Source of the DNA: Desulfonatronospira sp.
GTDB taxonomy: Bacteria > Desulfobacterota > Desulfovibrionia > Desulfovibrionales > Desulfonatronovibrionaceae
Length of the DNA stretch: 48,262 bases
NCBI GenBank assembly: GCA_007125075.1
Contig: SLDX01000063.1
Location: 1 to 48,262 of the forward strand
Direction: 5' to 3'
Positions 27,859 through 41,106 of the stretch are shown in pieces. The position numbers and the translations under genes are program-made. The notes under the pieces are model-generated. The model was not told the DNA's origin. It saw nothing but the letters and a program-made list of their open reading frames with translations, and made no database searches. Each line of letters opens with the position of its first letter. Position 1 is the first letter of the stretch.

Positions 27859-28044
27859 CAATGTCTTAAGAGCTGCTGAAAAAGATGTTGTTTTGATGTC
27901 TGGAAGTCATGATTCCAATTGGACGGCTCTTGCCGGATGATCCGTGTTTGTCCAGGCTTAGGTGGTCATTGGACCGACATGTTTGAAAAACCTTGAACTG
28001 CGCATTGGTAAAGAATCTGATCTTAAGCATTTACAGATGTATCT

Positions 28045-28120
28045 GCAAAAAGCATGAGATCAATTTTGAGTTTAGTTCTATGCTGATAACCATTTGATTT
28101 TACTGGCCCCTGAATCCTGA
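28045..28120 (-). repeat. Dispersed intergenic repeat, copy A (short heptad end)
   Basis: GCAAAAAGCATGAGATCAATTTTGAGTTTAGTTCTATGCTGATAACCATTTGATTTTACTGGCCCCTGAATCCTGA; aligns along its length with 40182..40273. Confidence 0.7.
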
Positions 28121-28124
28121 CCTT

Positions 28125-28154
28125 GAAGCCTGCAAAAAACTCTTTGCAGGCTTC
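28125..28154. other. Perfect 12-bp-stem hairpin, possible bidirectional terminator
   Basis: GAAGCCTGCAAA-AAACTC-TTTGCAGGCTTC. Confidence 0.6.
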
Positions 28155-28169
28155 TCTTTACATCCTGAC

Positions 28170-31459: not shown

Positions 31460-31515
31460 GGGTTTAGGGTTTAGGGTTAAGGATTATGGATTATGGGTTA
31501 AAAGTTTAAAGATTA
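31460..31515. repeat. Degenerate heptanucleotide tandem array (8 units), copy C
   Basis: GGGTTTA GGGTTTA GGGTTAA GGATTAT GGATTAT GGGTTAA AAGTTTA AAGATTA. Confidence 0.9.
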
Positions 31516-39351: not shown

Positions 39352-40104
39352 TTATCCAGGATTGAAAGCCCGGTCTGTACAGCCAAAATAAAGCCTGAGT
39401 CTGTCCTGAGCGTTGAGCCTGGTAAAGCCATGATCTTCCATGATCCTGGCGGCGGCATCAAGGTTGGCTTCGGGAGCCATGCCCCTGCAGCCCCAGCAGA
39501 AACTGCCTTCGGTTACACAGCAGGCTTTGCATCCGGCCCTGGTGACAATGCCCAGGCAAAGCTGCCCCTGCTCATAGCGGCAGATATTTCCTGCCATCTT
39601 GCACTCGGCGCACACCGGATAATCAGGCGGGGTATAGATTTTGCCCAGCAACAGCTCTTTGACTGCAGTGGCGAATTCGTTTTTGTCGATCGGACAACCA
39701 TGAATGTCCATATCCACCGGAACCACAGCTGAAAGAGGTCTTGAGGCGTAAGTGGAGTACCAGCGGGCTGAGGATCCGTAAACAGTGGACCTGTATTCGG
39801 ATTCGTTTATGAAATTTTTCAGGCAGTTGATGCCGCCGATGGTGGCGCACGCTCCAAGAGCCACCAGTATTCCGGCGTTTTCGCGGATCTCTTTCAACCG
39901 TTTTTCATCTTCCGGTCTGGTGATTGAGCCCTCAACAAAGGCTATATCATAATCATCCGAGTGTTCGGTCTTGATTTCCCGGAAACTGACCACCTCGATA
40001 TGTGCCAGAATGTCAAGAAGCCTTTCCTCAAGGTTGGCCACCTGCAGCTGGTCTCCTTCGCAGCCGGCGAAGTCAAAAAAAGCAACTTTCGGTTTTACCG
40101 CCAT
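39352..40104 (-). CDS. hydD: [NiFe]-hydrogenase small (delta) subunit
   Basis: 250 aa, FFDFAGCEGDQLQ, GACATIGGINCLKNF, HGCPIDKNEF, CAECKMAGNICRYEQGQLCLGIVTRAGCKACC cluster-binding motifs. Confidence 0.92.
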   Translation of the reverse strand: MAVKPKVAFFDFAGCEGDQLQVANLEERLLDILAHIEVVSFREIKTEHSDDYDIAFVEGSITRPEDEKRLKEIRENAGILVALGACATIGGINCLKNFINESEYRSTVYGSSARWYSTYASRPLSAVVPVDMDIHGCPIDKNEFATAVKELLLGKIYTPPDYPVCAECKMAGNICRYEQGQLCLGIVTRAGCKACCVTEGSFCWGCRGMAPEANLDAAARIMEDHGFTRLNAQDRLRLYFGCTDRAFNPG

Positions 40105-40181
40105 GTATCTCTCCTTTCTGAATCAAAGCCGTACTTTGTGAAAAGGCAAGATTCGTATCTCGACAGGAACCTGCCGGCATC

Positions 40182-40273
40182 GCAAAAAGCCATGAGATCA
40201 AAATTTGAGTGCAGTCCATCTTTGACAACCATTTGTTTTTACTTACCCCTTAATCCATAATCCATAATCCTGA
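40182..40273 (-). repeat. Dispersed intergenic repeat, copy B (three extra heptads), inside the hyd operon
   Basis: GCAAAAAGCCATGAGATCAAAATTTGAG...GACAACCATTTGTTTTTACTTACCCC-TTAATCC-ATAATCC-ATAATCC-TGA, homologous to 28045..28120. Confidence 0.75.
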
Positions 40274-40275
40274 AT

Positions 40276-41106
40276 TTAAAAAGCCTCAGGCAGATTGGCG
40301 ATTTTGGTATAGCAGAAAACAGGCCCGTCAGTGCAGCAGTTGATTCCGTTGATCTGACAGTGTCCGCATTTTCCAAGGCCGCATTTCATTCTTCTTTCCA
40401 GGGAAACGTATATTCTTTCCTGGGGAATTCCCAGTTTGGCACACTCATCAATGACAAATCTGTACATGACCGGAGGACCGATCATAGCCACATTGGTGTT
40501 TTCAGGATTAATCCTGATTTTGGGAAACAAGGTGGTGATCACTCCCACATTGCCCTGCCAGCTTTCATCAGGCACATCCACTGTTTCCAGCACATGGACG
40601 TCGCTGCGTCTGCTGATTTCCTCCAGCTGATCGGTGAAAATTCGCTCCCGGGGATGCCTGGTGCCCACAAGCAGGATGATATCCCCGTACTCTTCCCTGT
40701 GTCTGAGCATATAGTAAAGCACGCTGCGGATAGGAATATAACCAAGACCTCCGGCCGCAAACAAAAGATCCTGGCCCACGAATTTCTGCATGGGAAAATA
40801 TGACCCGTAAGGTCCTCTGATGCCGACTTTTGAACCTGTCTGCAGATTGTGCAGGGCATTGGTTACTGAGCCGGTCCTGCGCACAGCCAGTTCGAAATGG
40901 TGATGATCGCTCTGGGGAGGTGAACTCACTGAAAAAGGAGCCTCTCCCACGCCGTAGATAGAGACCTGAATGAACTGCCCGGGTCTGTGGGCCAGGGTCT
41001 TGCCGCTGTCCTGGGCGAATTCAAAAAGGGTCACATATTCGGATAAGGTGTTTTTGGCCACCAGTGTAGCAGGCCTGGGAACATAAGGTGAAAAATCAGG
41101 CTTCAT
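40276..41106 (-). CDS. hydG: Hydrogenase gamma subunit, FAD/NAD(P)-binding, ferredoxin reductase-like
   Basis: 276 aa, HRPGQFIQVSIYGVGEAPFS, LLFAAGGLGYIPIRSVLYY, C-terminal 2Fe-2S CGLGKCGHCQINGINCCTDGPVFCY. Confidence 0.9.
   Translation of the reverse strand: MKPDFSPYVPRPATLVAKNTLSEYVTLFEFAQDSGKTLAHRPGQFIQVSIYGVGEAPFSVSSPPQSDHHHFELAVRRTGSVTNALHNLQTGSKVGIRGPYGSYFPMQKFVGQDLLFAAGGLGYIPIRSVLYYMLRHREEYGDIILLVGTRHPRERIFTDQLEEISRRSDVHVLETVDVPDESWQGNVGVITTLFPKIRINPENTNVAMIGPPVMYRFVIDECAKLGIPQERIYVSLERRMKCGLGKCGHCQINGINCCTDGPVFCYTKIANLPEAF

Follow-up and report, generated by a model that had tools for sequence, protein, structure and literature searches.

Among the described bacterial MITEs, the Correia elements of Neisseria insert at TA and, to our knowledge, contain no heptad module. 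Like the element reported here, they belong to a class of MITEs frequently situated between genes or ahead of them, with the capacity to alter transcripts (PMC10969869), but they differ from it in sequence and in their length of 204 bp. The Chunjie MITE of Geobacter uraniireducens is likewise short and non-autonomous, with one copy inside an operon (PMC10969869). Its resemblance to the present element extends to terminal repeats, target duplications, many intergenic and many truncated copies, and the operon copy itself, whereas Chunjie is 178–235 bp long, belongs to another lineage and is described without mention of heptads in the review on whose description the comparison is based (PMC10969869). 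MITEs in operons are known already, and the new part here is a heptad module with a fixed 7-bp step. Heptameric repeats of variable number have also been described in their own right, namely the STRR sequences of cyanobacteria, GGGGAYT of Nostoc and GGGAATC of Xanthomonas, for which polymerase slippage was proposed (PMC4692102). As in the present element, these are intergenic 7-bp tandem repeats; they form free arrays, whereas the heptads of the MITE are a fixed module between core and hairpin, though free arrays also occur.

The window, that is, the whole 48,262-nucleotide stretch analysed, contains two segments, at 28045–28120 (copy A) and 40182–40273 (copy B), which a sequence-only reading had regarded as two copies of a small mobile or amplifying intergenic element ending in a variable number of heptads, copy B sitting in a 171-bp gap between hydG and hydD. 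Alignment over the full length confirmed the pair, the heptads were exactly as read in copy B and, at 28111–28120, in copy A (TGAATCC-TGA), and the gap (40105–40275) measures exactly 171 bp. The element is indeed mobile, present in many copies and located in an operon; its heptads, however, are internal rather than terminal, because a terminal hairpin comes after them in intact copies, which copy A keeps and copy B has lost. Both segments are copies, but each covers only part of a MITE (Table 1). Copy B is very probably a decayed member of a dispersed MITE family with terminal inverted repeats, 6-bp target duplications and 7-bp length steps. This family of soda-lake sulfate reducers (haloalkaliphilic Desulfovibrionales) is new and previously unnamed, and no bacterial paper containing its terminal sequence was found within the limited literature searched.

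Table 1. Positions in the window of the parts of copies A and B and of the genes flanking copy B
Feature	Position	Strand	Remarks
Copy A, left target-site duplication TTTACA	28030–28035	.	
Copy A, complete element (L087)	28036–28156	+	121 bp
Copy A, left terminal inverted repeat GATGTATCTGCAAAAAG	28036–28052	+	exact pattern match
Copy A, short heptad zone TGAATCC-TGACCTT	28111–28124	+	direct reading
Copy A, right-end hairpin GAAGCCTGCAAA-AAACTC-TTTGCAGGCTTC, then TC	28125–28156	+	contains right terminal repeat
Copy A, right target-site duplication TTTACA	28157–28162	.	
hydD-like gene	39352–40104	-	downstream of copy B; delta subunit; Pfam, NCBIfam
Copy B, decayed left terminal repeat GCATCGCAAAAAGCC (consensus GATGTATCTGCAAAAAGCC)	40177–40191	+	alignments
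Copy B, core	40182–40249	+	antisense to hyd operon
Copy B, heptad array TTAATCC-ATAATCC-ATAATCC-TGA	40250–40273	+	reaches hydG stop codon; direct reading
hydG-like gene	40276–41106	-	upstream of copy B; sulfhydrogenase / AsrB-like gamma subunit; Pfam, NCBIfam

The two copies of the sequence-only reading are not the only ones in the source genome. BLAST with copy B as query returned further copies, down to E=9e-16, the consensus core gave 19 matches at E<=1.3e-5, and a sequence-only model detected about 26 copies at E<2e-6 in 2.17 Mb, eight of which had not been used in building the model. Nearly all are intergenic, 25 of the 26 by ORF-based placement, as are 33 of 38 copies in the near-complete relative G005 (ORF-based gene call). 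Beyond the source genome, matches at E<=1e-4 occurred in 16 of 297 genomes of Desulfovibrionales. Desulfonatronospira contributed all seven of its genomes, another genus of the same family five, and two genera of a second family together four. The other genomes of the genus carry a sister form of the element; with its consensus (E<=0.01, partial copies counted), 25–85 matches were obtained in each of G001, G002, G003, G005 and G006, and three in the incomplete G004. A copy from the second family (G027) retains the box and the heptads as well as the terminal repeats, and is flanked by the 6-bp duplication TTACCA. No copy was found in the plasmid collection.

Intact copies in Desulfonatronospira relatives are about 118–147 bp long, contain no transposase gene and carry terminal inverted repeats GATGNNNCTGCAAAAAGTC of 17–19 bp at both ends. 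The left terminal repeat, GATGNNNCTGCAAAAAG(TC), is followed by a core of about 50 bp, which begins with (GATGTAT)CTGCAAAAAG in copies aligned with their flanks and has a conserved TTTGWTTTTACTGAC box at its 3′ end, by 1–6 tandem heptads, and by the right terminal repeat, which lies within a hairpin; many copies show after the heptads the terminal hairpin end GCCTGCAAAAAG..CTTTTTGCAGGC(TTCTC). In copy A, this hairpin (28125–28154) lies beyond the segment first described, and the whole copy folds with z=-3.6. Target-site duplications were assessed for 70 distinct bounded elements: exact duplications of 6 bp were present in 43, of 7 bp in two and of 5 bp in two, against matches of at least 5 bp in 1.2% of controls with flanks mis-paired between elements. 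The duplicated sites are A+T-rich, with 20% G+C versus 40% in the flanks. These data define a MITE family with exact ends, a target preference and a candidate transposase (described below). In the proposed mechanism, an IS1182-like transposase encoded elsewhere would cut at the shared terminal repeats and paste the element, for the most part, into intergenic sites rich in A+T.

The heptads account for the variation in steps of 7 bp. Box and hairpin are separated by 7, 14, 21, 28, 35 or 42 bp in 60 of the 62 copies that could be measured, most commonly by 28, and lengths of 118, 125, 132, 139 and 146 make up 47 of the 70 elements. The heptad of most Desulfonatronospira is TGAYSTC, that of the source genome TAATCCA or TGAATCC, and both CTGACTC and CTGTCYC occur in another genus; its sequence thus drifts (TGACCTC, CTGTCYC, TAATCCA), and the period of 7 stays. 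One turn of the DNA helix is 10.5 bp, with which a 7-bp step is out of phase. The idea that heptad number serves as a helical-phase spacer was rejected on this ground, and the length steps presumably reflect slippage rather than a spacing constraint. The heptads would grow and shrink via strand slippage in replication, perhaps aided when the polymerase pauses at the hairpin next to them. It is conceivable, though rather unlikely, that a built-in slippage module of heptads beside a terminal hairpin has been maintained across two bacterial families for some role in transposition or transcript control and is not a mere by-product. Because the heptads occupy a fixed place and can be counted in dozens of copies per genome, the family lends itself, as a clean natural system, to the question of why bacteria so often carry 7-bp repeats.

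Roughly half the source genome's AATCC heptad arrays have no recognisable element around them, so that heptads may also spread or persist independently. A third array in the window, on the minus strand at 31470–31501 (GGATTATGGATTATGG in plus-strand reading), has no recognisable core, and two assembly contigs start within a free AATCC array. The longest array seen, of about 13 CTGTCYC units, belongs to a copy from another genus (L370, G010:C78) whose right end is absent. Separately, short palindromes (for example GTCACGCGTCTTCGCGTGAC, or GTGAAACAGCCC...GGTTTCAC) are located within the core or heptad zone of several copies, L078, L099, L252, L256, L286, L291, L035 and L041. These copies come from more than one genus, and the pattern would suit a zone in which another palindromic repeat lands.

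A candidate for the mobiliser is an intact 1,900-bp insertion sequence in G005 (L185:482–2381), bounded by the terminal repeats GATGCGACTGCAAAAAGTC / GATGCGTCTGCAAAAAGTC. Inside this inward-facing pair it encodes a 567-residue DDE transposase with DUF772 and DDE_Tnp_1_6 domains, whose best family hit is IS1182 (NCBIfam NF033551; 173.8 bits, below the family cut-off of 270). The MITE and the insertion sequence have in common a terminal repeat of about 19 bp, in which the 12-bp block CTGCAAAAAGTC is identical, and the right end of the insertion sequence recurs in partial copies of it from G005, G001 and G016. At the right end beyond the terminal repeat, the similarity between the two is suggestive only (shuffle p ~0.07). 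Moreover, CTGCAAAAAGTC is located about 90 bp upstream of the open frame for three transposases of other genera, 44–48% identical to that of L185, and a 2-base variant of it accompanies a fourth (45% identical). Since the block is kept upstream of such divergent transposases, it is probably a feature of the L185-type transposase group. On the strength of the shared terminal repeats, an IS1182-like element is likely to be the mobiliser of the MITE.

Alternatively, the mobiliser of this MITE could be another transposase, one whose insertions produce 6-bp duplications, and the IS1182-like element would share no more than the terminal sequence. IS1272, which belongs to the IS1182 group, inserts by replacing hairpins and leaves the target unduplicated (PMC5678879), unlike the MITE, and the insertion sequence of L185, the only one found intact, is itself without a matching 6-bp duplication (flanks ttccaa / tttgtt); the transposase link is therefore made through the terminal repeats only. 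No L185-like transposase was detected in the source genome (a 97%-complete draft), or in G002, G003 and G006 despite their many MITE copies. Against these points stand the extent of the shared terminal repeat, the exactness of the 12-bp block and its retention beside related transposases, and no different transposase was present in the other inward-facing repeat pairs opened in G005, the sole near-complete relative. We thus consider a different transposase unlikely, if still to be reckoned with, and retain the IS1182-like element as the candidate. Two further pairs in G005 were rejected as mobilisers. One, of 1.2 kb (C1:156424–157607; L184 ~525–1708), surrounds a polysaccharide-deacetylase-like gene and has no target duplication, and may represent either cargo or two separate copies; the other, an 8-kb pair in C4, contains host genes.

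Retention of the element for a useful function as RNA or terminator, in which the hairpin would end or protect upstream-gene transcripts and the number of heptads would tune the spacing, is quite improbable. The hairpin of intact copies is indeed stable (z=-3.6 and -4.8), and among 36 copies between co-directional genes the hairpin end points towards the upstream gene in 25 (p=0.029), but this trend is weak, was pooled post hoc and depends on a crude ORF-based gene call. Furthermore, the core has no conserved structure, RNAalifold finding zero pairs, the copy between hydG and hydD is without hairpin or terminator-like site, and tight selection on spacing is unlikely because the 7-bp step is off the helix turn. 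At gathering thresholds, Rfam models matched two tRNAs only in the window. Even less probable, to a degree that we give it very little credence, is a REP-type palindrome, moved not by cut-and-paste but by a Y1/HUH (RAYT) transposase. A short palindrome at one end and the intergenic position of the copies would suit it, but the copies have symmetrical repeats at both termini and 6-bp target duplications that match exactly instead of a single palindrome without duplication. Such a combination is not expected from single-strand HUH transposition.

The MITE reading also accounts for the hyd locus. Domain searches support a minus-strand four-subunit operon of sulfhydrogenase type, with NCBIfam scores under the curated cut-offs. 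Copy B matches the consensus core with 85% identity (E=1.3e-18) and the sequence-only model with E=2.1e-17. Its left terminal repeat is decayed, the sister species reading gcAAAGCC at the orthologous position, and its right terminal hairpin is gone; as it lacks both intact ends and a detectable target duplication, we assign it to the family by its core and heptads. RNA folding of copy B is no better than that of shuffles (z=+1.4), and no terminator-like site was found at the copy. With neither a predicted RNA structure nor a terminator, copy B is most likely an inert, tolerated relic, which accounts for the hydG-hydD gap in a sulfhydrogenase operon with no need to assume regulation.

The nearest relatives by HydD are Desulfonatronospira MAGs with 98% (sister species) and 83% identity. 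In the sister species, the hydG-hydD gap is 419 bp and holds an orthologue of copy B, with the same heptad count adjoining the hydG stop in a gap-free alignment. The next relative (83%) has a gap of 117 bp, from which the copy is absent, and the corresponding gaps in other genera are 10–130 bp; the segment is therefore not an ordinary conserved spacer. This and a restriction to two copies genome-wide were the outcomes that would have refuted the sequence-only reading, and neither was observed. Indeed, an ordinary operon spacer or a chance likeness of two intergenic regions is virtually excluded, being refuted by the many copies, the target duplications and the lack of a copy in the corresponding gap of relatives. 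Since the copy is present in the sister and missing from the next relative, the hyd insertion appears to be ancestral to the two species and not ancient, and the operon has later taken a second insert. The MITE would thus have come to lie between hydG and hydD before the source species and its sister diverged, and the copy would then have lost its right end to become an inert, transcribed spacer.

In the sister species, the orthologue of copy B is cut by a 257-bp element (L104:2126–2382) with 14-bp terminal repeats CCTGAATCCGTGAA and a long internal inverted repeat, an unrelated second small mobile element in the hydG-hydD gap.
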